This document shows positions 5,777 through 63,903 of a stretch of DNA of 64,000 bases, piece by piece. Numbering within the stretch: position 1 is the stretch's first letter; each line of letters opens with the position of its first letter. The stretch lies in assembly GCA_030248215.1 (NCBI GenBank), contig JASANG010001517.1, positions 31,974 to 95,973 of the forward strand, in the 5' to 3' direction. The translations under genes and the position numbers were made by a program. The notes beneath the pieces are model-generated. The model worked only from the letters and a program-made list of their open reading frames with translations. It made no database searches and was not told the DNA's origin. Source of the stretch: Enoplolaimus lenunculus (taxonomy: Eukaryota > Nematoda > Enoplea > Enoplida > Thoracostomopsidae).

Positions 5777-5995
5777 GGTCCATGTAAAGATCAGGGGCGG
5801 AACGTTTTTTTGTGGGACTGCAATAGAGTGAGCTTAAGTTTTAAACTAATTTTTTGCTTGGTTTAGGCTTAGGTTTAGGAATATGCTCATTCTTACGCAT
5901 GGGCTTAGGCTTAGCGTTAGGAATATGCTCACTCTTAGGCTTAGGCTCAGCAATATGCTTGTAATACTGTTCCGCCCTTGTTCTTTACATTGGCC
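5777..5995. mobile_element. GGCC-family MITE with perfect 8-bp duplication
   Basis: The ends GGTCCATGTAAAGATCAGG and TTCTTTACATTGGCC are flanked on both sides by CACACACC (5769-5776 and 5996-6003). The interior alternates TTAGGC-like runs with GGAATATGCTCA. 219 bp. Confidence 0.93.
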
Positions 5996-6110
5996 CACAC
6001 ACCGGACAAGGGCGTAAATAGGATATAGCTTTGTAATCTTCTAGGCCTTGCGCGCTGCGCTTCTTCGCAAAAACTTACGAATGAGATTTATTAGAAATAA
6101 TATTTTGACT

Positions 6111-6272
6111 CGAGCTCGTAGCCAGCTCACCTTGCTACAATGGGCTAAAATGTTTCTGGAGGGCATATAACAGGTTTCGTCGACTTACAAGCAGTGTTGA
6201 AAATTGTCTAGTGGAGCCAAAATTAATCAGGGGGGCTGATTCCCCGTTTGCTCACCACTGGCTATGAGGCCG
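6111..6272 (-). mobile_element. CAGGCCCGTAGCC-type MITE
   Basis: Matches the 58051-58213 reference copy: terminal CTCGTAGCCAGCTCACCTTG, a CGACTTACAAGCA middle, and terminal CACTGGCTATGAGGCC. Confidence 0.75.
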
Positions 6273-6371
6273 TCTTGGGGACGGCAGAGCAAAGTTTTGG
6301 CATAATGATTTTTAAAAGTCATTCATCTTTTTAATTTGAACAGAAATATATTTGGACCAAGCGGTGTACTT

Positions 6372-6779
6372 TAGTGACCCGAATAAGAGGAGGTGAGGTA
6401 ATAAGAGGGGGTCCCCATTTTGAGTCGCAATCAATAGGAGTCCGTAAGCAAATAAAGTCCCTAAACCGTAATTAGCGTCCATAAATGTCAATTATCCCAA
6501 TTGTAGTGTATAAATGACTCCAGGACCAAATAAAGTTGTGTTCGAAACTCTAAAGCGTACTTATGTTTTGAAAGTCTGCGTATAATATTGCATTATCGCT
6601 CAAGTTTTTGATACAACACAAACGTTTAATTCAACGGATAGTTGCAATACCGAAGTTATATCGGTAACGAAGGGTGGCAAAGCGTGGTTAAAAATAAATA
6701 ACAGTCCGTAACCGAAAAACAGCGGGTTCCTCTGGAAACGCCAAATTAATATCAGTCCCATCTCTTATTCGGGTCACTA
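6372..6779. mobile_element. TAGTGACCCGAATAAGAG element, 408 bp
   Basis: The terminal inverted repeats TAGTGACCCGAATAAGAG and CTCTTATTCGGGTCACTA are perfect over about 18 bases. The interior AATAGGAGTCCGTA and AATGACTCCAGG reappear in a partial copy at 50502-50665. No coding capacity. Confidence 0.88.
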
Positions 6780-7095
6780 CAATAGATAGGAAGAATAGCT
6801 TGAAAATACAGCGGCTATTTTTTAACCTATTTTACCTATACGAAACATAAGTAAAAGGTATTAATACAATCTAATACATCTAAAAACAGTTAGATTCACG
6901 TCTATCAGAATATTCTTAAAGTCAACTATTAATTTACCGTGACAGCGTTGTTTACATATTTGTTTGGTTTGTGGCAGACAGTCTATTTATTTTCAAATTT
7001 TTCAAAGTAGAATTCTTTGAAAATAGGAATTTTCGAATGAACTAATAATTATATAATGCAGGATTCTCATATTGTATATTGTGCTAATTAAAACA

Positions 7096-7287
7096 ATTTA
7101 CGACAATTCGTCGCCTGACAACTTGTCGCCCAACAGTGTCCAAAAAAGCCTATGAATAAATCTAAGCATAATCCTAAGCGTAATTTTAATTGTGAATCTA
7201 AGCCTATAAGTATAATGATGAGTGACGAATTTTTGAGTTGATAGAAATTTCGGATTACAAGTTGTCGGGCGACAAATTGTTGTAATT
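7096..7287. mobile_element. CGACAATTCGTCGCC-type MITE
   Basis: The ends ACAATTTACGACAATTCGTC and GGGCGACAAATTGTTGTAA are inverted. The interior is ATAAATCTAAGCATAATCC. The same family occurs at 46198-46615 (expanded) and about 33745-33850 (5' part only). Confidence 0.8.
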
Positions 7288-7433
7288 TGAAATAAAATAT
7301 CTCATATCATGCATGGTATTAATTAAGCATTTAGCCGTTAGTTCACTTTAAATATTTTAATAGATCCTTTTGTTTTTTGCGATTAGCTACTTATATTGGC
7401 AACAATTTGTTACTGCAACCTTTAGTTTCATGA

Positions 7434-7599
7434 CGGGCCAGTGGTCAGAGGAGGGCAGGAGTGCTCGAGCTCCTCTGGAAGAACTTTAGCAACCACCTAG
7501 AAAATATTCAACCTTGCTTGTAAGTCATCGGAATCTCTTGTATGGTTCTTCTGAAAAAATTTTAACCACCCCTAGCAAGGTAAGCTGGCTGAAGGCTTG
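7434..7599 (+). mobile_element. CAGGCCCGTAGCC-type MITE, diverged
   Basis: It retains AACCTTGCTTGTAAGTCATC, CTCTTGTATGG and CCTAGCAAGGTAAGCTGGCT, the ordered blocks of the family. Confidence 0.7.
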
Positions 7600-7670
7600 T
7601 TTAATGAGAAGAAATAATTTTGTAACCATTAAACGTAGTAAGCCAGTAATAATTAAATTTTCTCGTCAGG

Positions 7671-7883
7671 TATTTACCCCTTCACCGTGTTTAACAATTG
7701 CAACACGCATACATAGTACTAAATCACCACAAGACGTGAGAGCCCCATCGGGATCAAGAGCGTCAAGCTCCTATAGCTGAGTGGTGATGGTATATGCCTC
7801 CCACTCCAGTCACTGGAGTTCAAATCCTAGCATAAAAGTAGGTCTCAGGGGAAATAGAAAATATTCATGTGAGAAAGGGTTAA
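7671..7883 (+). mobile_element. Shortened CCCCTTCTCACAT element with tRNA-like block
   Basis: Third copy of the 498-768 element. The left side is deleted, and the tRNA-like block spans about 7768-7840. The right end is GTGAGAAAGGGTTAA. Confidence 0.75.
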
Positions 7884-8365
7884 GTGAATTTGCCCGAATT
7901 TGTTATATACGGAAATGACCTTACACCTAAAACGCCGGTATCGGACCCGGCACTGGTACCAACCGGGGCTAATCAAGGGCGTCCCTGCGGAGGACATTGG
8001 TAGGCCGTGTCCATTCATATTCGGCTGGTGCCCTCCAAATAGACTCGGTCTAAAAGCAAACAATCTTCAATTGGATTTGTAGGAACCCCTCAAAAGTTAT
8101 TCAGTGTCCCCCAAATATAATTTTCTGTGAACGTCCCTGGGGCGAATGAATATTTCTGAACGAATTCACTGTGTTTTGGTTAAATATTTGTTTACAACTG
8201 GACATTAATATTTTTTGGTTGCCAACTGAAACGCTGAGTCGAAACGACCTCTCATACTCGAACCCGACTTGTTACTTTTTTAAATTTTACTCACTCGAAC
8301 TCGACCTGCTCAAGGAACTTTATTAAAATTTTATTCCAATTTACAATTTATACCATATTTGAATA

Positions 8366-8377
8366 ATGGTCAAATAG
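8366..8377 (+). promoter_or_regulatory. Minimal upstream ORF before glypican start
   Basis: ATG GTC AAA TAG, ending one base before the glypican ATG at 8379. If the 5' UTR includes it, it could lower translation or favour reinitiation. Whether this stretch is transcribed is not known from the sequence. Confidence 0.35.
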
Positions 8378-8378
8378 A

Positions 8379-11500: not shown

Positions 11501-14500
11501 TCGCAAAATATGAAAGAAACTTTTGCCCGAAAAAAACTTAAGCCGTATTCACACGTGCAAGATTTTACTGCGAGAACTTGCAGCTGCAAAATGTACGCAA
11601 AACCTGCACTTTTTCATCAACCAATGAGAAAGCGGATGCAATAAATTCATTGAACTTGAATGGTTATTCCAATATGTGAAATAAATTCCTAGCTAAAATT
11701 TTTTAATGAATTATTTGCAGCTGCAAGTTTTTCGAACGGGATTTTGGACAAAACTAGCAAGTGTAAAGCTGCACCTGCCAGTTCTCGCGTCAAAAACTTG
11801 CTCGTGTGAATATGGCTTTATATTTGCTGATTTGAAGTTACGCGCAATCTGCTTTGTGGCAATGCTGAGTAGCGTCTTTCAGCTTAATATATAATCAACA
11901 GAAAGTTGTATGGCTGCGTAGCTCAGTGGTTAGAGCAGCGGACCGGTAATCTGTATGTCGTGCGTTCGAGAACAACCACATCCGCTGGAAAATTTTCGTG
12001 AAAGGCTCTATATGGTACTGCTTAAACTTACAATTTATGCAAAATATATTTTTATACGTTTAATCTTCAGTTGTTTGTGACAAGTTCTATATTCGGCTTC
12101 CTGCTCAGAAATATCTAATTGCGCTTGCGAGCAACCCTATTCATAGACGTTCATATGCTGGATTATTGACATAGCAATGCGTATAAAAGTGAATTCTGAC
12201 GTTCACAAAAGTTTGCTAACGTTACAATTCTTTAAATGTTGTCAATAACGTTCAAATTGTATTAATACACTGCAAAAAATGTGAGTCAAATTGACTCTCT
12301 CCGAAATAGGCTCTACGGGACTACACAAATTGAGTCAAATTCGACTCCGTCAGAGTCAAATTGCATTGTTTGATCTCGCAAAATTTCATAGATTATTTTT
12401 TGCAGGTCAGACAGCGTTGTGGTCATGTTTTGCCGGAACCCAGCGAAAGGCCATATCCGGTTCCGCCACTTAAAAAGCGGATAAAGCCACGGCCGTTCCG
12501 GTCGACGCAACGACAAAGTGTGGACGCGCAGCTCGACGTGATAACCACGGTAAGAGCCGGATTATGAGGGTGTACTGGTCGATTTAAGGTAGATATACCG
12601 ACTGAGCCTATCCAAGCAGAAATTTTGTATAAAGATCTGGCATTAAAATAGCGTTTGTTTTATACTGCCCCTTTTTGAAGAATTTGAATCTACCACTAAG
12701 GTTTAATAGATATAAAATCTAAAGGTTATACCGGATATCAGTTTCCGGTTAAAAATCACTGTCCGTCCGTTTCCGGTTTTATCATTCTCACTTGTGCAAT
12801 TTGTAATTTTATAAAATTTGGCTTCTGACAACGTTTCTATTTGAAAAAATTCAACCTAAATTATCTTCGCTACACTAGGGTACTTGAAATATAGATGGGA
12901 AAAAAAAAATCCCCCCCGGGGGCCTTTTGCTATTTTGCAACAAAATTATTTGTTGTTTACTATTTTAATTTTTTGTTTCAGAATTTAACCGATTCTATGA
13001 TTGGCCATTTTACCCGGTTGCCGGAAGCGCTTTGTCCAATGATCGACGTTGATTCCAATTGCTGGAATGGGACAGCTGTATCAAGGTACATTTTTGTAAC
13101 GAAAAATAAGCTACACAGCAAAAAATGGTGAGTGAAATTGACTCTCTCCGAAATAGGCTCTACGGGACTACACAAACTGAGTCAAAATTCGACTCCGGCA
13201 GAGTCAAATTCGATTCACTGAGGTCGCATGTTTGACTCTGGCGGAGTCGAATTTGACTCAGTTTGTGTAGTCCCGTAGAGCCTACTTCGGAGAGAGTCAA
13301 TTTGACTCACCATTTTTTGCAGTGTATGAAGTTCGTTAATATGGGCATCTGACGCAATTGTGTTAATATGATCGCACATGCGGAAAGAGTAGGGTCTGTA
13401 TTCTCAAATGTGTGTACACCAGTTGGTGATAGGTCTTGTAACCTTTGAACCAGTGCATGATGAGGTTCAAAATTAAGCACATTTATTCTCACTTGATGTG
13501 TTCTACTTCTGTGCCAATTTTGAGGCCTGCAGTTGTAGAAGTTCGTCAGTTTGAAAATCTATCGCTAACTGGTCATAGATGCTACACAAATTTGAAAGTA
13601 TAGACCAGTGCCGGAGCACTCAGGGGTGGGGGATCTTCTCAAATTCCAGGGTGGGGGTCATCAAACTCGCGAGCGAGAAGCCAGACGCATTTTCAAACTT
13701 AAGCGGTTTTTGTTTCAACTGGTTAGGGTGGAGGCCCTTTAGGGGTGGGTCCCCCCAAACGGGGCGTATGGCGTGTGGCTGCTCCGGTCCCGGTGTAGAC
13801 CTAGGTGTGAACTGATTTTTACGCCCATTTTCAATCGAGAACTTGACTAAATTTCAAATTTTAGCTAAGTTATTAACAAAACTTACTCATGAAAACATTT
13901 TTACTGCAAATCGCAATAATTTTAAACTGCATTAGCTATGTATTTTTACAAACATTTTTTGCAAATTTTAGTTTCATTTCATAGTGTTTTTATGCACATT
14001 AGCTGCATTAGACAGATTAGCTAAATTAGACTTAATCACTTTATCAGGCTTCCAAAGCTACGTTCACTTTGATAGCATGAGATATTGTTTCAACATCATA
14101 AAGCTGTAATTTATAGCTCATTCACACCCATTGGCTCTCAATAATGACTGTTCGTAGCGTAAAAAAGGCCCCATTTGGAACCATTGTATCGAATACGGCT
14201 GTAACAGTAGTATAAGCATATTCCTAATCATAAGCGTAAGAATAAGCTTATATCTAAGCGTATGCGTAACAAAATAATTAGTCTAAAGCGTAAGCTTGCT
14301 CTATTGCAGTCCCACAGAAAAACGCTCCGGCCCTGATCTTTACACGGGCCACCGTTTGGAACCAGGAGTCCCAAATGTGCCACAACGGTCGAAAACAACG
14401 GAATGGATACGAGCCACGTTTCTTACAGAAATTTCAACGAGACAAGGAAGGGGTTTACAGGGTTTAGAATGACCTGATCGACCCTAGAGTCCAAGGATTC

Positions 14501-17500
14501 CTTAAAATGACGTGAATACCCCCCTCGAAATCAACACCTGGCACACGCCGGACCCTAAAACGTCAGACCCGTGACTGGTGCTAAACTAAGAGGGTCACGA
14601 CTTTTGAAAGTACTTCAACGTGGAACCGATCTGTGACTATAAAAGGAATTCAGTCGTAGAACCAATACTTGACATAAAAATTATTCAGGGGGTAAAGTTT
14701 TTTAGCAACCTCCCCCCAGCAGCAATTAGGAGACTAAAACTGGTGGCGTGGTGTAGGCCTGCAATTAGATCCATGACTTAAAAATTATTCAGGGGGTAAA
14801 GTTTTCTAGCAACCTCCACCCCCAGCAGCAATTAAATAGTCTGAAACTGGTGGCGTGGTGCAGGCCTGTCATTACACCTATTACATAAAAATTATTTAGG
14901 GGGTAAACTTTTCTAGCAACTTCCCCCCAACCGCAATTAGTGGAAAACTGGCGGCGTGGGGTAGTCCTGCAATTATAGACGCACCTGACGTGCGTTAAAA
15001 TGGGTTCCGACCCACGGTCGATGCTAATTAGCATGATTCATTAGATTTAGGTATTTTGAGTCTATACTGTTTTCACGCTTGTTTTTTAGCAAATATTATT
15101 TTGTTGAACGCCATTGAAACGGACCAATGATTTACTAAGAATTTCGTTTATACACTGCAAATAATGGTGAGACAAATTGACTCTCTCCGAAATAGGCTTT
15201 TCCCGACTACACAGATTGAGTCAAATTCGAGACTCCGCCAGAGTCGTCTTCGACTCACCCGAGTCGCTCAGTGAATCGAATTTCACTCTGGCGGAGTCGA
15301 ATTTGACGCAGACTGTGTAGTTCTGGAACGCCTATTTCGGAGAGAGTCAATTGGACTCACCATTTTTGGCAGAGTATTCACTGCGTGCCGCCGGACGCCG
15401 CTGCGCGGCACAGTAAATTATATTAAAAATTCCACCAAAATTTGCAAGTGTGAATAGGGCTATATAATATAATCTCGCGAGAGTTTACTATTCTGAAAAT
15501 TTTCAATCAATTACCGTACTCAGGGTATATATCGAGAAATTGTCGTTCTTGCAGCCTTGTTCCTGGCTGCGTCAGTTCATCACCTTCCTACTTTATAGCA
15601 CTATTTTGTATAATAAAAACTTGCACGCAAACACATATTTTGTTTGTGTTTGTACTGCGAAAAACGGTGAGTCAAATTGATTCTCTCCGAAATACGCTCT
15701 ACGGCACTACACAAATTGAGCCAAATTCAGTTTCGCCAGAGTCAAATTCGAATGCTAATTACATAGTCTAATTACTGAAAATCAGGGGTTTGGTACAAAA
15801 AACAATAAAGTAGAATGTTCCCCCAATTCTTGAAAAAATAAAAACAACACCGTTTCAGGTAACATTCGCACGTAAGAGGTCAAAATATATTCTCGCTCGC
15901 AATTGAACCCGTTTTCAAGGTTTCTACCCTTTTGAAATGATATCACGGGCTACGACCCTGGCTAAAAATCGAACGAATTTGTTGTTTTCGTATTATGGAT
16001 TATTTTCTATTTCGTCTAAGTACCTGTTGGTCATAGTTGGTGCTAGGAGGTGCTTAATATAACGAGAACCCAGATAATGCGAGACAAGTTACTCGACGTA
16101 CAATACAGAAAATAATAGCTTTTTATGAAAAACACTAGCTATGTAATTTTAATAGCATTCTTAATTTGATATATTGCGCTGTGTTGAAGAGGAAAATTAG
16201 TTCAACAATCGTAGCTACGGGTTTGTAGCTAGAAGGCGTCAGGAGAGAAGAGACAGTCTCCTATGGAAAAATTTTGCCGTCCATAGAAAATTTTCAACCT
16301 TGCTTGTAAGTCATCGAAAACGCTTGTATGCCGCTCGGGAAAAATGTTTAGCCCCCTATCGAGGTGAGCAGGCTACGGTTCTTTCAAACTAGAGATAGAC
16401 ACGAGGGTCTAGTGCCACAAGCTTTGTTCCCTTAAAAATAGTGGCACACGTGGGTGAGAGCAGAGGGCATATTGTCCCCCGTGTATAAATTTCGGTTCAA
16501 ACAGCCGTTACGACAACTAACGGTATGAACTTAACTAGGCAGCGAGGTCGTGTGTTACGTGGGCTCTAAAAAAGTTTGACGAAAAACATGAGGGCCCATG
16601 TATAGAACACGGCCGGAATGTTTTCCGACCGGTCTGTAATAGAGTTCCTAAGGTTAAGCTTTAGATTATTTTTTGCTTGGCTTAGGCTTAAAGCTCGTTG
16701 TTTAGGCTTAGGCTTAGACGTAGGCTTAGGAATATACTTATACTACTGTTGCGGCCCTGTCCTATACATTGGCCAACATGAGGGTCAAAAATACATTTCT
16801 CTTGTCTCAGAGTTCATTTTTAAAGCACTCGTTACGTGCCGTTTGAAAGATCGGATCCTGCGGTAACGCACTCACAGGTCTCCAGCATATTATGGGTGGC
16901 GCTATACGTGTGCCGTTGCACAAGTCAAAAATTTTATGCCTACAAATTGATCTGCAGTGTCATGCGCCAATATATGCGCGGTGCCGGACGTTGACGGACG
17001 GCGCCGTACGTCATTAAAAATATACCACTTCCGTAATTTTAGGCCTGAGGCCCTGAGTCGAGCCCGTGGCCCAGGGGGTGGGCGGGGAGCTCACCCCCCT
17101 GGAAAAATAATGGCGTCCCCTAGACAATTTTCAATCTTGCTTGTAACTCATTGAAAACCCTTGAATGCCTCTCCTGAAAAATTTACAGCTTCCCTAGCAA
17201 GGTGAGCTGGCTACGAGCCTGCCCTGAGTTGAACAAAAGATTTTTCGATAGACAGCGTAAATTTATAAGAACCACAAGGCCATGTTGCAACCAATAGGTT
17301 GACCCTAGGTTTGGTTAATGTAGTACCAGGTGTGGGGTCAAGGGTAGGGATAAAGGTATATTTTCCTCCTGGATACAAAAAATTCTTTTAGTTGGGGCCA
17401 TCCTAATAATCTGGGCCTAACCTACTTTGATGGGCGGTTGATTTCTTCGTTGAACTAACAAACTATAGGCTTAACGCCGGGGTTAGGCTTAGGCTTAGAA

Positions 17501-20500
17501 ATATGCTTATACTATTGTCACGACCCTCGCAGTAATACACTGACCATGCTCAGGATCCTGGGGGTCAGGAAATATTGTTTTATATGACAACATACCCTAC
17601 CGAATGGAAATTCCGGCCGAACCCTGGCCGTGTACCGAGCTCAATCAACACGAGCTCAATGGCGGATCCATGGGGGGCCACCCCGGCCGTACCTCCCCCC
17701 GAACAGCATCTCGACAAAAATTATATAGCTATTTTATGGCAATAGTTCGTGGTTTGTGTGTGGGTCAAAAATAAGTTTATTACCTGTAAAATTTTGCCCT
17801 CCCCCCATTTTGAGATCCTGGATCCGCCACTGCACGAGCTCTTCATTCGCAGTTTATATTCCACTTCGTACCATACACTACCAGTCTCCCTGCTCAACAA
17901 CGTCTCATAAATTTTTGACCCCAGATGGCGTGCCCCGAACTAAACTTCGTAGAATCTAAAAGTTATGTATGCTTTGTTGGCCCATGTAAAGGTCAGGGGC
18001 GGAACGTTTTTCTGTGGGACTAGAAAAGGATAAGATTAAGCTTTAGACAAAATTTTTTGCTTGGCTTTCGCTTAGACTTAAGCTTAGACTTAGGCGTAGG
18101 AATATGCTTATAATACAGTTCCGCCCCTGCTCTTTGCATTGGCCGCTTTGTTTATACGTGAATCACATGAATATGGTTCAGTTTTCTTAATATAATGTTG
18201 TTTTTCGTGTGGTATGTTTAGCTTCTAAGCTTTATTTGGTATATCGCTGTAGGGGTAAGTCTTACAGATCCTTAAAGGTTTAAGCCCTTGGAATATATAT
18301 GTATATATATGTATATATGTGTATATATCCAATGTTTCACAAAAACTACAGCCATAATACCAGCGAAACATTTCCTTGGTTCTTTCTATTTAGGATGACT
18401 ACGCGAAATGTATAGGCTACGCCAAACCAGCTTAGCCAGAATTACATTTCAACAGGTGGTATATCCTGATGTCAAAGTTGTTTTGCTACCAAGCGACAAA
18501 ATGTACTGATTTTTAATATTCGGGTTATTTTGAACCCTGAAAAGTTTGCTTACTTCTTATTTTTCATCAGGTTCAAATGTGGATATATTCCCATTTTTTT
18601 CTTTATATACCACTTCTTGGCCAATCAAACCAACTGGTTTGTGTTGGTGTCACGAAACCAGACGCCAGATTGAGTTAGATTAGGTCACGTCAGTGTTCCG
18701 GGGTCGGAAAACAAGAACCGGGTACGGGAAGTGTGCCACTTTTAGGACTGTACCGTTTAGGTGTTTCTGGTTGGACTGCAACCGAGTAGGCTAAAATTTT
18801 AGACTATATTTTAGGTTTAGGTTTAGTTTTACACTTTTTTGCCACATTTAGGCTAAGGAATATGTTTAATGTACAGGTATTACGACCCCAAAGGTAACAT
18901 TGACCAGAAGTGTTGTTGCCACCTTGAGTTTGACTGGTGTGTACGGGATACATTGAAACTTCAGAAATTAAAATTTAGAGTGACGGGTAGGTTGAGGGGC
19001 TTTAAATTCAGATATTTTAAATTGTAAATTTTTGTGAAATTTATGGCAACTGATTATAAATTGAAATTACAAAAACTAACCAACTTTTGATGTTTGCAGT
19101 CAACAACCCATACTGCAAAAAATGGTGAGTCAAATTGACTCTCTCCAAAATAGGCTTTTCGGGACTGCACAAACTGAGTCAACTTCGACTCCGCCAGAGT
19201 CAAACTCGACTCCGCCATAAAGTCAAATGCGACTCGTTGAGTAGCACGTTTGACTCTGGCGGAGTCGAATTTGACTCAGATTGTGTAGTCCCGAAAAGCC
19301 TATTTCGGAGAGAGCCAATTTGACTTACCATTTTCTGCAGTGCAAGTATAATAAAAATGCAATTCTTCACATGAGAATGCAATATATTCTTGCTTTTCAC
19401 CCGGATTTACACAGTTGTACCTACGTTCTAATAATTTGACCAAATGAAAAATTTAAAAGTATAGACCATGTATAGATCAGAGGCGGGCCGCTTTACCACG
19501 GAACTACAATTGTGTAAGCTTCAGTTTTAGACTATTTGTTGCTAACACTTATCTTTACGTTTAGGCTTAGGTTTAGGAATATGCTTATACTACTGTTATG
19601 GCCGTGTTTTATACATTGTTTAAAATTTTTAACACAATTTATGAAAACTGGTCCAGTATATTAAAATCGGGCACGTACGATCGCTTTCTGGCGTGGTTTC
19701 AGACGACAAGGCCCTGCCGTCCATCATTGTTTCCGCAACCAATCCGTTGCTTACCAATCCGTTGCTTAAACTCACAACTTCTTCAAGCCAGGAGTGTAGC
19801 AAGATCACATTGCTAGGGACGCTAAATTTTTTTCAGGAGGTGCATACAATGGTTTTCAATGACTTACAAGCAATGCTGAAAATTTTCTAGGGGGAGACAA
19901 AATTTTTCTCAGTGAGGCTGCGGCTCACCTGGCCCCCTCTTGTCTACGATCCCGCTTCAAGCGCGGATATGCTAGCATAGAAATATTAATAAACCGTCAA
20001 ACAGATGCGATTGCGAAATTTACTGGTTTCTGGTTGATTCAGCTATGTCTATGCCATCCTTAACAAATGTTTCAATCATTAATTATATTTCACTAGTTTG
20101 CCAGCCTTATGCAAACCAGGTTTCAAACCTAAATACTCGGTGACGTCTGCCTTATAGACTACCATAAGCGTTCTAGTCCGCAGTAGTCTATGCGGTCTCT
20201 GGACCTGACAGCAGAGGTGAAATCAAAAGTTTCTGACGGGGGTATACATATTGTGGCCTATGTTACTTTAAGGGGCGTTGCAGTAGATTAAACGTATTCC
20301 TAAGCCTAAGCCTTAGCGCTGCAAAAGTGTGTTCCTAAAAGTCTAAGCCTAAGTCTAAGCAAATTAAATATTTCGGCGGTGAGAAGCGCCCTACCTCTCT
20401 TTGAATCGACCCCTGCTTGCAAAACTTAAAGCCATGCGTTGTTCAACGTATTACCTTAGGCAAACGGTATCCGCTGGGGCTTATGGGTATGTGGTTGGAA

Positions 20501-44573: not shown

Positions 44574-47500
44574 TACTGGAAGTTGGAAGGGGCACCGCGC
44601 TCCATACGTATATATTATATTCGACCCCTCTGGTCAAACGTTTTTCAACAGTAAGCTAATTTTCTGCGAGCCCGTAACCAGAGGAAGGTCTGGGGGGCTG
44701 TCACCCAGAAAACTTTTGCCACCCCCCAACTCGCCAATAAAGTTCCAGCCTCGCTTGAAAGTTATAACAACCGTTCGATATTCAAATTTTGGCAGAACAG
44801 GTTTAGAATTAGTCGCATACCCGAGTTTAGGCTTTAGGCTTAGGCTTAGGCTTTGGTTGGCAACTGGAGAAGTCACACTTTCTGTTCGTGGAGTCGATTT
44901 CTACGTTGTGTTTTGTGTGTATTTATGTTGAAATGTTTGTTTTTTTGTTTGTTATTATTTTTATTGTTTTTATTATTTTGAGTAGCGATTTGCAGACCGT
45001 ATAATTGTTTTTTTGTACAATTGATTCGTATCTGATGTTAATTTCGTTGATGTGTTTGTTTGGGTTTTTCGTAAAATTATATCTGGGAATCATATTTCAA
45101 ATGCGATTGCAGTATAATGGGTTTATGTTGAAGCCAATGGTCGCCAAAGAAGGGGCCAAAGGTCTGCGCCCCACCTGTAAATCACTAAACACAGACTAAG
45201 TGGTCCGGTGAATATTAATATATTGACCAAAATTAGTTTGTGGGACGTCACAGTAGCTTAATGATATTCCTAAGCCTAAACCTAAGCGTAAGCCCAAACT
45301 TCAGCGTAAGGATAAGCCTATAACTCTAATCCTATGCTAAAAATAGTCTAAAGCTGTGAAGCTTACTCTATCTGAGTCTCGTGGCAAACCGGAACGCCCC
45401 TCAAAGTAACATTGACCAATTTGTTTTACATAAGGTAGATTAATTTTCATACAAACTATGGAAAAATTATCGGGGTAACCACCCCGCCCCCCCAAACTAA
45501 AATGCTAGTCTCGATCTCCAGGGCAGATTGGAGGTATACGTAGACGCAGTGCCAGGCAAATAGACAACCAACAATCCTTTGTTTGATGGGGGCTAATCAG
45601 GTATCGAAACAATCGCGGAACTTCTTACAATTTTATTATGAAAAGATAAGTTTCTGGTACGAGTTTAAGAGCCAGCTCATATTACTGGACGGGGGTAGAA
45701 AATTGTTTAAAAGGAACATACAAGCGTTGGCAATGATTTACAAGCCAGTTTGAAACAGTTTCTACGAGGGCTAAAAATTGTCCAGCCAGAGCGGGAACCG
45801 TTCTTGCTGTATTCGCGGTCCTATAGCCAAGACGGCGGGCTCAGCTTTCTTCAAAAACGTTTTGGCCGCGTCTAGAAAATTTTCAACCTTACTTGTAAGT
45901 CAACGAAAACCTTTGTATGTCCCTCCGGAAAATTTTTATCTCCCACCCCCACAAGTATGGGGTGAGCTGGCTATGACCCTGCGCCTACGTCTTATGGGTT
46001 TGTAAACTATGTTCTTGCAGAAGCAAACATTTGCATAAAGGATATGTGTGGCTACATGCGGTAATCTTTAAGGTATATTATTACTCGCATAATATTGTTA
46101 TCTGTAACTGTTCCAGTTCGAAACCTTTGTTTATTTCACGGAAAATTTACGGCCCCCACATAAGGTCGGGCCCCCGCTAATTGGCGTATGAATTAGTCAA
46201 ATCAAGATAATTCGTCGCCCGGCAACTTGTCGTCCAATGATGTCCTGCAACCTATGAATAAATCTAAGCATAATCCAAAGCGTAATCTTGAGCCTAAGTC
46301 TAAGCATAATCCAAAGCGTAATCCTGAGCCAAAGTCTAAGCATAATGCAAAACGTAATCCTGAGCCTAAATCTAAGCAAAATCCAAAGCGTGATCCAAAG
46401 CGTAATCGTGAGCCTAAGCCTAAGCATAATAATAGGCGTAATCCTGAGCCAAAAGCACAATCCACAGCGTAATCCTGAGCCAAAAGCACAATCCACAGCG
46501 TAATCCTGAGCCTAAATTCGAAGCATAATGATGGGCGACGAATTGTCGATTCGATGAAATTTCTGATTACAAGTTGTCGTTCGACGAGTTGTCGGTCGAC
46601 GAATTGTCGTGATACCATTTAACATCGCCTTAATGTTTTCAGACTAGACTTCTCAGCTAAATATTTGTTTCCGACCCGTAGCCTGAGGGGGGGCGGGGGG
46701 CTACAGGACTCGACCTCCTAGGCAAAAGATTAGCTCAAAGAAAACTTTTGGTTCTGGTTTGGCAAAAGTCGTCCTAGTATACACCCAATGTCCCGGCGTT
46801 GTTTGATATGGGGTCTACATGAGCCGTTTTAAATGTTTCCACCCTAAGTGGTACGTTTTAATTAATTTTAAGGAATGCGCCTATTTTGTTTTGATATTTT
46901 CAACAGTAATTCTGTGACCAAATAGCTGTCTATGTGCTTGCTAAAAGCGGTCGTGGCTTTTAGTCCGCATAATTTGGGTCTTTGTTAACGGTTGACATTC
47001 AAATTTGACCGGCCAAACCTATTTTGTGACATTTAAGTTCATTGTTTGTCTTTCGAAGCTTCGAAAACTCTTATATGCCCCTCCTGAAAAATTGTTAGCA
47101 TCCGCTAGTAAGGTTGAATTCAGTACAGGATTGTGGGGCGCAACGAAATATGTTCCCACCCGATCTGACCCGCAGCTAAACGGAAGTTGCTGGCCGGAAA
47201 TGGGTACCGCCCTACCCCGTAGAAACCCTACAAACAGCTTCGCCGCCGGCCCAAAATATTTTCAACTCATTAAAAACAATTCTGTGTTAAAATAATTTTC
47301 CATGCTCCGTTCCTGGGGCAAGGGAGGTGATAAGGGGGTCGATGGGGCGCGCACTCAACCCCCCCCATTGATCTGAACCGACAAATTTTTTTCACCTAAT
47401 TTGTAAACTTCGGTCGGTGTCCTGAAAAAATGGTCAAAAAATTGGGCTTCGCGCATATTAACTAAGCACCATTTATGGATGCATTTTTAGCGTGTAATCA

Positions 47501-50500
47501 ACTAGATTTCAAACATACCCCTGTCAAAAATTTAGGTTAACCGCAGGTTTTTTCGGCTACTTTTTCAGTAATCCCCAAGTCGACGTTTGTCCGAAGATAA
47601 TTGGACTTCCCTGGTCATTAGACGACCAAATTTGAATTTTTGGAAAATTTGATTTTTAAGGTCCCAAGGACCATCAGGGTACCTGCTAATAATATTCAAA
47701 AATTTTTGTTAAATACGCAAATTATATGTACCATTTGACGCAGCCTGCAGAGCTGAGTCCAATTTTGTGTTAAATTTTCCGTAATCAAACATCAGGTTAA
47801 CGAGTTATGGTTAAATAACTGATTTGGCGCCGTCCCAAATCGTTGGCAGCGTGCTAAATCAGTTACTTAACCGTACCTCGTAAGCCAAACGGTTGATTGC
47901 AAAAAATTTACAACAGTTGGACTCAGATTCACAAGCTGCATCGAATGTAACTAACAAAATAAATTTTGGGTGCCAAGAGGGGATCTTGAGACCTTACAAA
48001 ATCAAATTTTTCAACAAAAAGTCAACTTTGGGCGTGAAATAACCAGGAGATGTCATCAAAAGCTCAAATATGCAAGAAGTCTAGAAAAATTCGATTTTTA
48101 AGGTCCCAAAAAATTTCCATTTTGGGGGGAATGCGGGCTGTGAGGGGATAACTGGGCATGCGCCCTGCTTAGGTTATTCATATCACCACCCCCAGCTGTG
48201 GGAATGTTCTTGACTGAGAATTCCTGACCGGGGGTGGGTTGCACATGCCCCCTTTATTCTACGGTAAAGCAGCTGTCACGTGAGAGGATTTAGCTGCTCG
48301 TGTCGGAAACATTAAAAGAAATATATACATATATTGATATATACATATATATATTATGTTTTTTTTGTATTTTTAATAGTGTTTGTTTGTTATATGCGTA
48401 AAAGATTAGCGTTTTAACATTTCCACAGCTAAATTTTAGCAAAAGATTAAAAAATAGTTGCATAGCTTACGTTTAACTTTCGCATAGGACGTACGTTCGG
48501 GTCGATTCGGAGGAAACGCCGAGGGTGCCAACCGTGCAAATTTTTCCTTTTTTGTCAATACACTGTAGATTTCAGTGAGTTGATTTTAACTCAGAATGTG
48601 TTGAATCCCCGCAGAGGTCTGAGCTGTGAATTAGGCATTGTAGAACTCAGAATTATGAATTTATTAAACTCATTGTGTGTTAATCAACTCACCAGGAATA
48701 AATCAACTGAGAGTGATTTAATGTTTACTGTTATTAACTCAGCAATAACCAGAAATAACTAATTCTCTGTGTGAGTTGATTAATCAACTCACCGGAATGT
48801 AAAATAATGCGTAGCCTCGAGTCAGAAATCTTCAGGATTCGGCAAAGGTTGTGGGATCTGGCTGCCCCGCCACTGGTCGTGGGATCCATCGCTGTGCCAC
48901 TGGTCGCGGGGCCTGTCGCCCCGCCACTGGTCGTGGGATGTGTCACCCAGCCACTGTGATCATAGGATCTACAGCCCCGCGCCCTACGCCTCTAATAGCT
49001 CAACATGCCGTTTGGCTGCGGACCCGGGACTGCGCCCTGTAGGCAAAGGCGATGTGTGTATTCCGGGAGGATACCAGATCCCTGATTTTTGGTTGTTGGG
49101 TTCGTCGTCACCGGCACAAAATGTGCTGATGAAGTTACGTAAGTATTATTCTGACCCGTTTCACAACTGCGGCATTCGATAATCCTGAGAGTACAGCCGT
49201 TTTCACACGTACAAGTTTTTGCTGCGAGAACTGATTATTCACACATGTGAACTAAATTCCTAACTGTGATTTTTAACGATTTATTTGGCATCTGCAAATT
49301 TTTCGAACGGAATTTTGGACAAAACTTGCAAATGCCTGTTGCATCTGCAAGTTCTCGCAGCAAAATCTTGCACGTGTGAATACGGCTTCAGCTGCACCCA
49401 TCAAATTCAGAATGGCGATGATAAATATTAATGTAATAAATGCAGTTAAAAAGTTTCTGTTACGTTTTATCTTGTCTTGCGTTTTAAGTTACATTTGAAT
49501 ATTTTTAAGTATTTTTACGTAACATAACAGGGCATAGGGGTAGGAGCCAGATTTTTTTGGGGGGTAACGGTCTATAAATACTTTGACGGGGGGTAACGTT
49601 TCTTGTATTGCAAACTGCAGCAGTATCTAAACACCCCTGTACAAAAATATTAATAGAAGATGATCCCTTGATCGCTGCGTAGCTTATACCATTGTACCAG
49701 CGTCGCTGAAATGGGGTCTCCAGGCGACGCCATCAAACAGGGATCAAACCCAAAATTTTGTTATAAAATCTGGTACTCAAATAGCGTCTGGCGTCTCGCT
49801 CTTGAGCTATTTTCACTATCATTTATTGACCCAATATTACTTTAAGGGGCGTAACAGTAGATTTAACGTATTCCTAAGCCTATGTCTAAGCGTTGCAAAA
49901 ATGTGTTCCTAAGTCTAAGCCTAAGCGTTGCAAAAAATGTGTTCCTAAGTCTAAGCCTAAGCGTTGCAAAAAATGTGTTCCTAAGCCTGTTAGCCTAAGC
50001 GTTGCAAAAATGTATTCCTAAGCCTAAGCCTAAGCGTTGCAAAATGTGTTCTTAAGCCTAAGCCTAAGCACAAAAAATGTAAGCTAGAACCTAAACCTAC
50101 TCTAATATGGACCTACCAGAAACCTGGACGCCCCTTAAAGTAACATGGGCCATTTATTTCATGCCCCCCACCCCCTATCAGAAATTTCTGAATCTACCAC
50201 TGAGCGTCACAAAGCATTGTTATGCAAACGTTAACGCAAAAAAACAACTGCAAAATTGCAGTGTAAAGTTATCTTGCAAGCTTTTGTGTGTGACTAAAGG
50301 TTTTAGCGTTTTAAACGCACAAATTTTTCACTGTTCAATCGCCTTTGTTTGCCTGACATTTTTAGTATTTTCGAGTCGTTTTTAGGTTTGGTTGACGGTT
50401 TTGGCGTTTGTATATTTCCCCTGCCAGTGGCGGATCCAGGATCTCAAAATGGGGGGGCCAAAATTTCACAGGTAATAAATTTATTTTTGACCCATACTGT

Positions 50501-53500: not shown

Positions 53501-56500
53501 GGATGGGCTCCCGTGGATTCGCCAGTGATTGGGAACGCGATTTAATTTACAAAAATATCGTGTAGGAATTGGTTAAAATTTACTAAATGTATACCAATTT
53601 AGATTTTGAAAAACCTAAAACCCTGTCTTTAGATGGATGTTCATTGGTTTAAATCATTTTCTCGATTTAAAAATTTTGCGATACAAATGATTCCTGCTGT
53701 ATGATTGGTTGCGTAGCCGGAGGCAGGCTATTGGGGACTCAGCGTCTTGGAAACATTTTGCCCCGTTGAAAATTTTCATCATTACCTGTACGCTGCAAAA
53801 AATGGTGAGTCAAATTAACTCTCTCCGAAATAGGCTTTTCCAGACTACACAAACTGAGTCCAATTCGATTTCGCTACAGTCAAACATGCGACTCAGTGAG
53901 TCGAATTTGACTCGTGCGGAGTCGAATTTGACGCAGTTTGTGTAGTCCGTAAAAACCTATTTCGGAAAGAGTCAATTTGACTCACCATTTTTTGCAGTCA
54001 CTGATGTAGAAATAAAAATTGCCCTCGCCGTTTTTTGGGCTCCGGCACCTAAGCTTCTTATTAGCTCAATGGTACGCCAGTAATAGTACCATTAACTTAA
54101 CTACGTATATGCATCGGTTCATTTTCAAGGTCCAGCGCCGGAGCAGGCTAAGGTGGACCCTCCTAAAATTCCTGGGTGGGGCCGTCTTACGATGATCAAA
54201 ATATTTTTTACATTTTTTGTTTAAAATCTTGTTAGGGTGGGGACCCATTTTTGGGGTGTGGCCCCCAAATGGATGGCATGCGGGGTGGTTGCTTGTGCCC
54301 TGTTAAGATTATCTGTATATCCGGTACTTCGTACACACCCATTACTATAACTTCGGGCCATGTATAGAACATGGCCGGAACAGGTATGTCCTCAGCCTAA
54401 ACGTAAGGATGAGCCAATTTCTAAACCTAAGCCTAAGCAAAAAAATGAGTCTAAAGCTTAAACTAACTCTATTACAGCCCCTCCGGAAAACGATCCGGCG
54501 CTGTTCTATACATGGACCATTAAACTTCTATACGTGTCATTAACGTTTTTTTGACGAAAACATTTATTGGTGTATAAAATTGGCAAAAAATTTCACTAAT
54601 TGCACTAGCTAGCTCATCTTTCGTCACTTGAAGAACATGTTCAGAAATATATGTGTTTCTTCAGATTGGGCGAAACGACAAGGTTATTACAACAACGATG
54701 GTGAATATTATATAATTGATTAGACTCGCAATTACCAATGACAGTCTAGCGTTAGAAACAAAAAAACAATAAAAATAAAACAAAACAGAAAAAAATAGAA
54801 AAGAATGCGTAAAATGGGTCGACGTACGATTATAGGGGGTCCATTATAGTTGTCGTCGGTCTGGCGCTTGCCGTGTAGCGTTTGCCTCAAGAGCCAACAG
54901 GTCAAACCCGTTCGTTATAATATTTGTATATTTGTCATGGAATTTTGGATTAATAGCCAAAATAACTGCAAAAATCTAACTAAAATTTTTACAATCTTAT
55001 TAGGAATATTCAAGCAAAATCAAATCAACTCGCACTAAAAATAAGATTTTACAATTTTTCAGACATTATCAAGACTTATCCGCAAAGAACGAAACGCTCC
55101 AAAACTGCCAGACGATAAACACTCGAGCAATTTGGTTCCAAATTCCAAGCATCCCCCGTTGAATTCTTCTCAACCCACCGACGATGCTAATTCTGACCCT
55201 GCCGCAAAATTAGACCATCAGCCTGAAAGCCCTCCGCCACTGCTCGCTTCGCCGTCCAAATCTGAAAATCTAACACATGGTACGTCCCAGGGTCAAAAAC
55301 TCGAGCACCAACGATTAGATCAGGCTCACCTTCTGCCTGGACAACGGTCAAATTCTCACAGAAAGCCTCACCCCCAGGATGACACCGAAGAATACCCGTT
55401 CGACCCTGGATCCGGGCTGTTTCCAGGTCATATGCCTGTCGGTGGAGGTAATCCTCACCCAGGGGGTGCAGGGCACTCCAGCCTGGCGGGTGAAGCTGGC
55501 TTGGACGGGGCAAATGAGGACTGGTTTGATGCGGCAACTGGGAAAAAGACCTCTCTAAAGGGTCACCACCATGGTCTTCCGCAAGCTGGCCACGGCGGCG
55601 AGTACGTCCCAGGATCAATTTCGGGGGACGATGAAGATTTCGAATTCGCTTCAGGGGACGGAGAATATGGAGGAACGGCCGAAGATCATTATGGCAGCAC
55701 CGCCGCCGGTGACGGTGGTCACTTTCCGTTCAATTTCGAAGGAAAGTTATCGCCACCGGCCGGCGGTGGTGAATATGTCGGATCGCATCATATATTTGAT
55801 CCGTACGATGAGTACGAATCGAATTATGAAACGATTTCGACTAAAGATAACCACGCAGTTGATTCCGGTCATGGGCATGCGGTCACCGGTGGCAAGCCAG
55901 ACCCTGTGGGAGGTCAACTGGCTGGCCAGCGCACGGACCTGGGCCATCCGGTTTTGGGAGGAAGCTCAGTGCCGGGTGATGAACCTTATTTCGATATCCT
56001 CGATGACAGTCAAGACGGTATGAGAGATTCGATGGGCCACAGTTCAGGTACGTTGGATACCATGGATTTTGAAATCTTTGTCCATGATTTCGTTTCATGC
56101 CCGTAGCCAGTTTGAGGGGTCAGGGAGTGGTCAGCCCCGCCCAGAAAGATTTTGCTGTCCCTTAAAAATTATGCCCCCTTTAGAAAACTTTTATCATCTC
56201 TAGTAAACTTTTGCTCCCCTTTGGAAATGTTTTCGCCCTGTTTGTAATCTATTTTAAATACCTGAATGCTTTTCCATAAATGTTTAACCCCCTCCTGGCA
56301 TGTACAGCTGTCTACTGGACACCAATGACACCTGCTAAACGTTCTAAGTATTTAGGGTTCACAATTCCAAGAGAACGACGGTGTCGGTTTATTTACGGAC
56401 ATCAACGCCTCCCGTTTGACCCGGTCAGAGACCATTTTCAATGACATAAAAAATCTTATTTTACAAAAACAACTTCTTGTGCACTTTTTCTGTTTTTCTT

Positions 56501-58242: not shown

Positions 58243-58801
58243 TGGTTAATGTATATAACAACGCAGCCGTAACACCAGTAAAGCATATTCCTAAACCTGA
58301 GCCTAAGTTTAAATCTATGCAAAAAATAGTCTAAATCTTAAGCTTACACTGCAAAAAATGGTGAGTTAAATTGACTCTCTCTGAAATAGGCTTTTCCTGA
58401 CTACACAAACTGAATCAAAATTAGACTCCGCCAAAGTCAAATTCGATTCACTGAATCGCTCAGTGAGTCAAATTAGACTACGCCTGAGTCAAATTCGAGA
58501 GTCAAATTCGATTCACTGAATCGCTCAGTGAGTCAAATTCGACTCCGCCTGAGTCAAATTCGAGAGTCAAATTCGATTCACTGAATCGTTCTGTGAGTCA
58601 AATTCTCCGCCTGAGTCAAATTCGATTCACTGAATCGCTCAATGAGTCGAATTTGACTCTGGCGGAGTCGAATTTTACTCAGTTAGTGTAGTCAGGAAAA
58701 GCCTCCTATTTCGGAGAGAGTCAGTTTGACTCACCATGTTTTACAGGTACTCTATTGCAGTCCCACAGAAAAACGTTCCGCTCCTGATCCTTACATGGGC
58801 C
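58243..58801 (-). mobile_element. GGCC-family MITE split by a TA-palindrome
   Basis: Left part about 58243-58346 (AAGCATATTCCTAAACC, TAGTCTAAATCTTAAGC) and right part 58748-58801 (CTCTATTGCAGTCCCAC to TTACATGGGCC) join at TTACTCTATTG, as in intact copies, once the palindrome is removed. Confidence 0.88.
58347..58747. mobile_element. Enlarged TA-palindrome MITE nested in GGCC element
   Basis: CACTGCAAAAAATGGTGAG to CTCACCATGTTTTACAGG. Flanked by TA at 58345-58346 and 58748-58749. At 401 bp it is about twice the family length, because the block CGATTCACTGAATCGCTCAG with its flanks is repeated about four times. Confidence 0.93.
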
Positions 58802-60060: not shown

Positions 60061-60260
60061 GTCGTACAAGTTCGATATTAATCGAGCCCCAAAATTGCTA
60101 AAGTCCATAAAATAGACACTGATACCAGCTTTAAATTAACCTTCTGGGTTGTGGAAACCAGAATAATTTTCCCAATCGTTGGGCTGGCGTTCTAAAAACG
60201 TTGACACCGGTTTATACTTACCGAACTGAAATCTTGGTTTTATGCCCAAGACCGGTTGTT

Positions 60261-60958: not shown

Positions 60959-61083
60959 GTCGTTTGTTTCGAAGCTGGTTGTAAACCATAACACTCGCAG
61001 TGAATATTGAATTTTGGCGTAAATTTCGGGCATTTCATAATGGAGGGTAATACGGTTTCAGGTATTTGAAGCATCACATTAAT

Positions 61084-61304
61084 GGCCCATGTTGTTACTT
61101 GAAGGAGCGTCCAGGTTTCCGGTGGTTCCATAAAAGAGTAGGTTTAGGTTCTAGATTACATTTTTTGCTTAGGCTTCGGCTTAGGTTTAGGAACATATTT
61201 AGCAACGTTTAGGATTAGGCTTAGGAACACATTTTAGCAACGCTTAGGCTTAGGCTTAGTAATACGTTTAATCTACTGTTACGCTCCTTAAAGTAACATT
61301 GGCC
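61084..61304. mobile_element. GGCC-family MITE, Gttacttt subtype
   Basis: GGCCCATGTTGTTACTTG to AAAGTAACATTGGCC; the flanks ACATTAAT and GCATTAAT match at 7 of 8. The core has two 35-bp-type units. Confidence 0.92.
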
Positions 61305-61680
61305 GCATTAATTATGCTGATTTGACCGAGGGTATATAATTTGCTCTCTTTATTTGTTTATTGTATTATTATTATGATTGTTATTATTATTATCATTATT
61401 GAAATATAAACGTTTTGTACTGTGAATATTTTGAGGAAAAGATGAGTAAAGGTTAATGTGTTGCTGATTAAAATGTAAACAATTTTGCCTATAAAATTCA
61501 ATTCCTAAAACGTGCACGCAGCTCATGTGGTGACAGATACCAGCTCGAACAGGTAATGGTCAAAATTCGTACTTTTTACGCTTAGAGCGCAACGGTGGCT
61601 TGAGCCTAAGCCTAAACCTAATGATTGGTCTAAAGTTGGCGCTAAAGATTTTATAGTGATTTCCGTTGCCGTATGTTGAA

Positions 61681-61992
61681 GCCAATGTACAGGTCAGGTC
61701 CGTAACAGAAGTATAAGCATATTCCGGCTCATGTAAAGATCAGGGGCGGAACGTTTGTCTACGGGCCTGCAATAGAGTAAACTTAAACTTTAGACTAATT
61801 TTTTTGCTTGGCTTAGGCTTAATGATAAGATCAGTTTTACGCTTAGGCTTAGGCATATTGTTATAATACTGTTCCACCCCTGTTCTTTACATTAGCCCAT
61901 ATTCCTAAACCTAAGCAAAAAATTAGTCTATAGCTGACGCTTGCTCTATTGCAGTCCCGTAGAAGAGCGAGCCATTCCGAATCTATACACAG
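61681..61992 (-). mobile_element. GGCC-family MITE interrupted by another copy
   Basis: Left part 61681-61725 (CCAATGTACAGGTCAGG) and right part 61906-61992 (TAAACCTAAGC, CTCTATTGCAGTCCCG), interrupted by 61726-61897 plus a duplicated CATATTCC. Confidence 0.85.
61726..61897 (+). mobile_element. GGCC-family MITE nested in its own family
   Basis: GGCTCATGTAAAGATCAGGG to TTCTTTACATTAGCC. The flanks CATATTCC are identical (61718-61725 and 61898-61905), and that octamer is part of the host element's conserved interior. Confidence 0.95.
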
Positions 61993-62126
61993 GACTACGA
62001 CGACGGACGGCACCGCACGTCAAGTATAGCGTCATCCAGGGTGGGATTTTACTGGCGGACACCTGTGAGTAAATGCGGATCGGCTGTAATATTTCAGCCG
62101 CAGGTATACTCGCGGATAAAGATTTG

Positions 62127-62305
62127 GGCGGATGTTACTTTTAAGGCCGAAACAGCAGATTAAGCGTATTCCTAAGCGTAAACCTAAGCGATGCAAAAGC
62201 GTATTCTTAAACCTAAGCCTAAGTAAAAAATGCAGTCTAAAATGTAAGCCTACTCTTTTACGACTCCAACCAGAAACCGGGACGGCCTTAAAAGTAGCGT
62301 GGGCC
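62127..62305 (-). mobile_element. GGCC-family MITE with perfect 8-bp duplication
   Basis: GGCGGATGTTACTTTTAAGG to AAAAGTAGCGTGGGCC, flanked by AAGATTTG on both sides (62119-62126 and 62306-62313). Confidence 0.93.
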
Positions 62306-62578
62306 AAGATTTGTATCACACGGGTAAAATATTGACAATTTTTACTTGCGTCAGACCTTTAAGAGTAACAGGGGTAAAAAATACGCTCTTAACAGTAACT
62401 AACGTATTTCTTTCGCCCAAATTGGAAACGGGATTTGTTTAAGAGTAAAGAGATGTGACAAAAGTACTGAAAACGATTCCAGGAACTAAACCAAAACATT
62501 TGTTTGCATATAACTTAAAAATTTCCACTCAAACGATCATAAAATATTAGATACATACGCCTTTGTCCCGTTTTACTG

Positions 62579-63164
62579 GGCCCATATAAAGATCAGGGGC
62601 GGGACGTTTTCCTGTGGGACTGTAATAGAGTAAGCTTAAGCTTTTAGACTAATTTTTTGCTTGGCTTAGGCTTATCCTTATGCTTAGACTAAGGAATATG
62701 CCCATTCTTATGCTCTTACGCTTAGGCTCAGGCCAGGGTACAACCTGAGGTCTGCCTCCAGGCCCGGCAAAAAATTAGCTTCCAACTCCGGCTCCGGTAG
62801 AATTTTTGACTTCGGTACCGGCAATTTGGGTACTAACATTTTGCATAATTTTCCTAAATTTATCTGTTTAGCGCGTTTCGATTGACTTTTGTTACAATTT
62901 TCATGAAAGAATTGCCGATATTTGGCACAAAATTAGCGTGAAACCAAACAACTTAACAACATTTTGCAGATATTGGCCTAAAGTCAACTAATTAACCATC
63001 ATTTTACTACTCTAATTTCGCGTCATCTCCGGCTGCGGCAAGTTTCGTTGACCTCCGGCTCCGGTACTTTTTACCTCCGGTTGCACCTTGGCTCCGGCTT
63101 AAGCAAGTTTTATGTTTAGGAATATGCTTATAATACTGTTCCGCCCCTGTTCTTTACATTGGCC
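62579..63164 (+). mobile_element. GGCC-family MITE split by a hAT-like MITE
   Basis: GGCCCATATAAAGATCAGGG at the left; GGAATATGCTTATAATACTG and TTCTTTACATTGGCC at the right. The middle 62734-63090 is a separate element. Confidence 0.92.
62734..63090 (-). mobile_element. CAGGGTGCAACC hAT-like MITE nested in a GGCC element
   Basis: CAGGGTACAACCTGAGG to CCTCCGGTTGCACCTTG. The flanks GCTCAGGC (62726-62733) and GCTCCGGC (63091-63098) match at 7 of 8. 357 bp. Confidence 0.92.
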
Positions 63165-63758
63165 CAAACCTGTCCCATTGTCCCGTTTTCGCAGCCAAAA
63201 AATTGTAGCTGTCCCGTTTTCCCATTTGCCCGAAACAGTCCTGTTCCAATTTGCCCATCTTCCCGGATAATGGTGTCAGCAGGAGTATATAAACTTGGCC
63301 CAATTACACTCTTGTGTCTTGTTACCCCTCGGGAGAACACGACGCCCCTAAAAGCAACATCACCCCCTGTTTTAATGCTATATTTTGTCTAATTTTAACA
63401 CTATATAGCGTATATTAGTGGTTGGTATTGTGAGAATTTAGTATTAAATGGTTCCGTCTGCAAAAACCTAAACAAAACCCGTTTTTGTGGAACTGGCAAA
63501 ATATCAACAACGACTCAATAAATACACAATCCCTGCAAAACAAATATTACGACTTTTTGTCGGGGGGATCGCTGCCCACGACCCCTTTTCGCTGCCCCGC
63601 AGCCGAATTGTTGTCGAAACTCTACAATTTTAACCGTGTGAAACAATATTTGAAATGTTTTTAAAATCAAAACTGTTTAAATTCTGTAACTCGCAGCAGT
63701 AATGTCACTTCTCGTATAAAATGTGGTGTCGTTGGCGAATTTTGTTAATTTTACAATC

Positions 63759-63903
63759 GGCCAATGTTACTTCCAGGGGCGTAACAGTAGATTAAGCGTA
63801 CTCTTAAGCCTAAGTCTAAGCAAAAGAAATGTAATCTAGAATGTAAACCTACTATTTTATAGATTCACCCGAAACCTGGACGCCCCTTAAAGTAACATGG
63901 GCC
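63759..63903 (-). mobile_element. GGCC-family MITE with perfect 8-bp duplication
   Basis: GGCCAATGTTACTTCCAGGG to AAAGTAACATGGGCC, flanked by TTACAATC on both sides (63751-63758 and 63904-63911). Confidence 0.94.

Follow-up and report, generated by a model that had tools for sequence, protein, structure and literature searches.

The window analysed here is a 64,000-nucleotide stretch of the genome of the nematode Enoplolaimus lenunculus (assembly GCA_030248215.1, contig JASANG010001517.1, positions 31,974 to 95,973 of the forward strand). It carries 21 paired copies, and further unpaired ends, of short repeats that begin in GGCC, six of them lying between perfect 8 bp target duplications. These repeats are miniature inverted-repeat transposable elements (MITEs), non-autonomous DNA transposons of the cut-and-paste kind that form a large group with one shared two-part end; that a Merlin-type transposase supplied in trans moves them has a probability that we put at roughly 0.6. 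Subfamilies A and B are present in the window, and a third, C, was found in loci fetched from elsewhere. The copies in the window are as follows (fractions are matches between the 8 bp flanks; the strand of an unpaired end is the direction in which it reads inward):

2069..2243, +: B element, flanks CCAAAGCG/CAAAAGCG, 7/8
2721..2950, +: A element, flanks GGAACTTT/GGTACTTT, 7/8
5777..5995, +: A element, perfect duplication CACACACC
14179..14350, -: degenerate A element, 4/8 (7/8 with the right flank shifted by 1)
16593..16774, +: A element, perfect duplication AACATGAG
17979..18144, +: A element, perfect duplication GCTTTGTT
19463..19621, +: old A element, 6/8
20255..20282, +: unpaired B end, by end-consensus score
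21074..21422, -: A element, flanks GAGCCTTG/GAGCTTTG, 7/8, with ~210 bp of another repeat inside
26600..26781, -: A element, 6/8
31240..31414, +: A element, 6/8
33446..33473, -: unpaired A end, by end-consensus score
37414..38645, +: long B element, duplication 5/8, carrying a 35 bp TTAGGC-containing array
37502..38603, +: 35 bp tandem array, 31.5 copies, inside the preceding B element
39685..39891, +: A element, 6/8
41362..41590, -: A element, duplication not conserved, 3/8
45225..45417, -: old B element, 6/8
49829..50151, -: B element, flanks ATTTATTG/ATTTATTT, 7/8, with a 36 bp array of 5.6 copies inside
54355..54518, -: old A element, 3/8
58774..58801, -: unpaired A end, by end-consensus score
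61084..61304, +: B element, flanks ACATTAAT/GCATTAAT, 7/8
61680..61725, -: left part of an older A copy, cut by the insertion at 61726; similarity resumes past the second duplication copy
61726..61897, +: A element nested in the older A copy, perfect duplication CATATTCC
62127..62305, -: B-like element, perfect duplication AAGATTTG
62579..63164, +: two A ends 586 bp apart, no duplication (3/8), probably not one element but parts of two copies
63759..63903, -: B element, perfect duplication TTACAATC

Subfamily A ends in GGCCCATGTAAAGATCAGGGGCGG (5') and GGCCAATGTAAAGAACAGGGGCGG (3'), subfamily B in GGCCCATGTTACTTTAAGGGGCG and GGCCAATGTTACTTTAAGGGGCG, and the third end type, GGCCCATGTTACGCTGAGGGCCGTCCCG, defines subfamily C. 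All five end consensuses have GGCC.ATGT.A.....AGGG.CG in common, and behind this two-part end lie different tandem repeats: TTAGGC-like hexamers and a 35 bp unit in A and B, an 8 bp satellite in C. The original prediction, made from the letters of the window, described one set of ends with a single type of terminus; the shared GGCC termini stand, but the window holds two subfamilies, and the two ends of one copy differ, one running GGCCC and the other GGCCA. With up to 2 mismatches allowed, the end motif occurs 57 times in the window versus 30 +/- 6 times after shuffling (none of 100 shuffles reached 57), and scoring of 28-mers against four end consensuses yields 61 window ends at 18/28 or better, versus 3-9 in five Markov controls. 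With these 61 ends, which amount to 21 pairs plus unpaired ends, the predicted count of at least 25 copies is reasonable; its range, which opened with the genuine copy at 5777, needs extending to earlier copies at 2069 and 2721.

The flanks single out a duplication length of 8 bp. Among the 21 window pairs, picked by hand after a duplication scan, the mean flank match at length 8 is 0.78 with 6 perfect, versus means of 0.26-0.34 and at most one perfect match at each of the lengths 3-7 and 9-13. Flanks agree at 7/8 or better in 11 of these pairs (when the right flanks were shuffled 10,000 times, 0.53 pairs did so on average and 6 at most), and five match poorly, at 5/8 or less (14179, 4; 37414, 5; 41362, 3; 54355, 3; 62579, 3). 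Because the window pairs were hand-picked after that scan, automatic nearest-end pairing over 234,203 bases (the window plus fetched loci, some fetched for holding an end) is the fairer test; it produced 43 pairs, 9 of them perfect at length 8 versus 0-2 at other lengths, with flanks matching at 6/8 or better in 21. The perfect octamers originally predicted at 5777, 16593, 17979, 61726, 62127 and 63759 are all present, as are the near-perfect ones at 2069, 2721, 21074 and 61084, each at 7/8, and the duplication at 49829, beyond that list, is also 7/8. The octamer duplications, the end family and the 8 bp pattern of insertion are thereby confirmed.

Insertion is also visible directly at 61726-61897, where an element interrupts an older copy of subfamily A. 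Once this element and one of its duplications are taken out, the interrupted copy can be aligned through the junction with other A copies, with that at 16593 over 53 columns at 87% identity, the joint falling at position 46. At its far end the older copy, which starts at 61680, gives only a weak match (17/28). The hallmarks of MITEs are all found, namely inverted ends with a fixed-length target duplication (in window pairs and C elements alike), short length (145-586 bp for the 20 window pairs other than 37414-38645), high copy number and no transposase gene found inside the elements, judged by the reading frames of 5 C elements, no domain search having been made on the elements; the predicted MITE family with 8 bp duplications is thus supported by end pairs, flank statistics and abundance.

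How satellites arrive at dispersed sites is an open question, and subfamily C catches the dispersal step directly, in satellite blocks with perfect ends and perfect 8 bp duplications. Its exact ends number 129, and in the part of them whose positions were listed we found 18 facing pairs and fetched them all; the exact-end filter favours young copies. Perfect duplications flank 15 of these 18 elements, which are 377-3264 bp long and consist to 63-89% of an 8 bp (16 bp) satellite, GTCCCACTGTCCCGCT and relatives, the two longest holding 193 and 198 copies of the 16-mer; the reading frames inspected, those of 5 of the 18, are translated satellite. As MITEs these elements are ordinary, and the mobile satellite blocks are the unusual part. 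At the other extreme, locus L078 contains a 74 bp element made of two perfect 33 bp arms and an 8 nt spacer, with GTACTTTT on both sides, suggesting that an element can move with very little sequence. A near-identical 74 bp copy with the same flanks, in the second copy of a 257 bp direct repeat at this locus, is a duplicate of the first; the flanks of a third 74 bp copy match at 5/8. The direct repeats themselves (L078:1-257 and 4162-4418, 99% identical, each carrying the 74 bp mini-transposon) enclose ~4 kb in which a reverse transcriptase match is weak and falls short of the family cut-off (E 2.5e-5), and by guess the unit is Penelope- or LTR-like.

Measured against the majority consensus of each subfamily, 13 A copies diverge by 9-23% and 6 B copies by 7-31%, so that the set is old and mixed in age. 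B copies span 145-1,232 bp, the two longest containing 5.6 and 31.5 copies of the 35-36 bp unit. TTAGGC, the nematode telomere repeat, is concentrated in the elements, with 716 hexamers in their 5,660 bp (379 of them in 37414-38645) versus 382 in the remaining 58,340 bp, and the majority of hexamers runs from the GGCCC end towards the GGCCA end in 21 of 21 pairs (those at 14179 and 21074 hold 1-3 hexamers only). A search for the nematode SL1 RNA gave no match, and the control genomes were silent too. TTAGGC arrays also occur inside contigs elsewhere in the genome. Two such places were read: one has no A, B or C end in the 3 kb covered and the other has a B end ~1.2 kb off, so that the elements are not the sole home of the arrays. 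At locus L077, A-type ends surround what by eye are B-type 35 bp repeat units, which suggests interior exchange between the subfamilies.

Genome-wide (296 Mb), the core GGCCCATGTWA has 7239 + 7177 exact matches, versus 913 + 852 for the pattern read backwards, and exact 23-24-mer ends number 3186 (A), 2616 (B) and 129 (C) against 0 for reversed-pattern controls. In the window only 5 exact A or B ends occur among the 42 ends of the 21 pairs, so that the true copy number would be several times higher, of the order of ten thousand, a scaling based on those 5 ends. Among the places listed, five pairs of facing exact B ends have a spacing of 174-201 bp. Rows of three same-strand A ends are present at C4:147732-148061 and C9:1093-1192, with spacings of 153 and 38 bp; in these rows it is the end of the MITE that is repeated in tandem.

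The autonomous partner, correctly predicted to be absent from the window, was not found elsewhere in the genome either: the check originally proposed, for a longer element with the same ends plus a transposase, was made on the end pairs and loci described below and yielded none. Six long pairs of exact B ends (905-2278 bp, in five loci, C5, C8, C12 and C17 twice, among the places listed) were rejected, having no matching duplications and looking like neighbouring separate copies. A pairs with exact ends, 579 and 666 bp long, each appear by eye to hold two separate copies, and the 18 long exact-ended C pairs were set aside as mostly satellite. Loci with Merlin-type transposases, 23 of which were checked as partners, are taken up below.

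By elimination, the Merlin superfamily (IS1016/IS1595-related) is the best fit for the source of the transposase, a preference we hold with appreciable doubt. The MITEs have 5'-GG ends and target duplications of 8 bp, as do the Merlin elements of the same genome, and their inverted ends are imperfect, a further likeness to Merlin. A domain search with PF12762 (Merlin/IS1595) gave 15 matches in this genome, and one protein used as query gave 22, at E <= 0.01. Merlin elements of 1.9-2.1 kb at L013, L017 and L019 have 8/8 duplications and that at L014 has 7/8, with ends of the type GGYGAAGGTAC (one base off allowed), e.g. GGCGAAGGTACGG; L013 and L017 are ~99% alike. L013, L014 and L017 also share an inner inverted pair with AAACGTTT on its flanks; being identical in all three, it was taken as part of the element and set aside. 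L057 is the remnant of a second Merlin group, with ends GGATCAATTAAA / GGGCCAATTAAA (inverted-end match only 11/16) flanked 8/8 by GTTATTCT, and similar end units adjoin the transposase in L018 and L015. This second group is mostly decayed (L015, L018, L055, L057, L060, L061, L062), and ATCAATTAAAGTTTCCCC-like units stand in tandem next to the transposase in L015, L018, L055, L057 and L061, in the last as a row at 1675-1850 and 2100-2320. Target choice was compared on perfect duplications, leaving aside the 7/8 of L014 and the imperfect MITE duplications. In the 25 perfect MITE duplications T is rare at position 1 (4% of 50 sides) and the two central positions are 86% A/T; the four perfect Merlin duplications, a small sample, likewise lack T there on all 8 sides. 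Published Merlin families start with a conserved 5'-GG and make 8-9 bp duplications (PMC8101967; PMC10045372); the original prediction had omitted this superfamily, whose ends and duplications fit (PMC8101967). We conclude that the family works like, and probably belongs with, Merlin, and do not place it as an established member.

A diverged IS1595/Merlin-type transposase of 342 aa is encoded at L009/L010 (C1378, C1711), L011, L012 and L022, in a ~6 kb repeated unit that is 98.5% identical over 5.4 kb between two contigs and whose termini were not found in these loci. Downstream of it is a weak DUF3987 match (E 0.0009, below the family cut-off); an open-access literature search for DUF3987 in eukaryotic transposons listed a single paper, which by its title concerns iron in Bacteroidetes.

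Several results pull against the interpretation of these repeats as Merlin-mobilised transposons. In the 23 Merlin-type loci (15 + 8; most read ~1.5 kb to each side, two beginning at a contig end), no GGCC pair spanning the transposase has flanks alike at more than 5/8: eight facing pairs in 4 loci span one, and the best reaches 5/8. The partner may be missing from the assembly, or extinct. The MITE ends show no significant similarity to this genome's Merlin ends in 10 comparisons (the best, 19 of 3000 shuffles). Of the automatically paired ends, 22 of 43 match at 5/8 or less, as is to be expected of a set that takes in decayed ends and mispairings, and three of the 18 C elements (L050, L051, L053; 1-3/8) have no duplication and may be recombinants or assembly joins. 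The genome also holds at least 45 matches to the hAT dimerisation domain, and two of the domain searches on which elimination depends exclude little, the control genomes having been silent as well: PF18758 for KDZ (Kyakuja-Dileera-Zisupton) gave 0 matches, and PF21787 for P gave 0 at E <= 0.001 with 1 weak candidate.

If the transposase is not Merlin, it might come from a group with 8 bp duplications that is undescribed or outside the five domains searched, Novosib being an example of the latter. We regard this as a minor but real possibility: no partner with the same ends was found among the long B pairs, the C elements or the Merlin-type loci, and the string GGCCCATGTTA retrieves only two papers from the open-access literature, both on cancer to judge by titles and abstract starts, yet GG ends, 8 bp duplications and resident Merlin transposases match an existing superfamily. 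A hAT origin, one of the homes originally predicted, is unlikely. MITEs of hAT type do make 8 bp duplications and are short and numerous, like the family here, and the genome holds the hAT dimerisation-domain matches just mentioned. However, the ends begin in GGCC, as the prediction itself had remarked, and not in the CAG/TAG that marks hAT; the hAT target pattern nTnnnnAn appears in only 2 of the 25 perfect duplications; the one hAT locus fetched of at least 45 (C1802) has no GGCC ends in 4.8 kb; and two MITEs of the same window that do look like hAT have ends CAGTGGCGGATCCA / CAATGGCGGATCCA and perfect 8 bp duplications. MULE, P and KDZ make duplications of about 8 bp too, which is what speaks for them, but we consider them quite improbable: PF10551 (MULE) finds nothing in this genome while 3 of 14 control genomes gave matches, and for P and KDZ, also among the predicted homes, the absence of domain matches argues in the same direction, weakly for the reason given. 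That the repeats are no transposons at all, but dispersed minisatellite pieces or segmental copies, would account for interiors made of tandem repeats, for TTAGGC arrays outside elements and for ends in tandem rows (e.g. C4:147732-148061, C9:1093-1192); it is barely credible and is refuted by the exact 8 bp duplications, against which stand also the nested insertion and the common ends with different interiors.

Under the preferred Merlin reading, we infer one common transposase, supplied in trans and most likely an IS1016/IS1595-like DDE enzyme, that would cut at the GGCC ends, probably binding their AGGG.CG part, and insert the element at 8 bp staggered sites, avoiding T at position 1 and preferring A/T at the centre. 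Movement probably requires nothing beyond the ends, to judge from the 74 bp copy, although in principle that copy may have shed its interior once inserted. As cargo, the interior would become tandem arrays, which would lengthen by slippage or by copying while gaps are repaired, and transposition would then disperse these arrays. A bolder version, which we put forward tentatively as rather doubtful, is that one system, maybe an undescribed superfamily, moves several unrelated satellites as cargo between 33 bp ends, picking them up and amplifying them during transposition, the 8 bp satellite itself having been recently mobile and TTAGGC having been spread in fixed orientation. Should the partner transposase be found, satellite dispersal by cut-and-paste would be open to an ordinary plasmid assay.

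No description of this family was found in the open-access literature, as far as the titles and abstract starts of the papers listed tell. Some published Merlin copies carry tandem repeats (PMC8101967); the present elements differ from Merlin in being MITEs without a transposase, in an end sequence unlike that of this genome's Merlin ends, and in having no partner found. The nearest published parallel found is Tetris/DAIBAM of Drosophila virilis, a foldback element and a MITE (PMC4079207), likewise non-autonomous, with outer ends common to element types and internal tandem repeats that feed satellites. In Tetris, however, ~220 bp repeats lie within the terminal repeats (PMC4079207), whereas C has an 8 bp satellite behind a 33 bp end, and unlike Tetris the A and B elements hold unrelated TTAGGC-type arrays.

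The window contains other repeats and a gene match. The separate MITE family with hAT-like ends is present at 17657-17832 and 50425-50802, between perfect duplications CACGAGCT and TCCCCTGC. A repeat of GAGTCAAATTCGACTC-like palindromic units lies at 19177-19235, 20680-20735, 51989-52176 and 58435-58625, and is also nested in the A element at 21074. A glypican match (E 3.9e-15), by which the genome is very likely that of an animal, is present as well.

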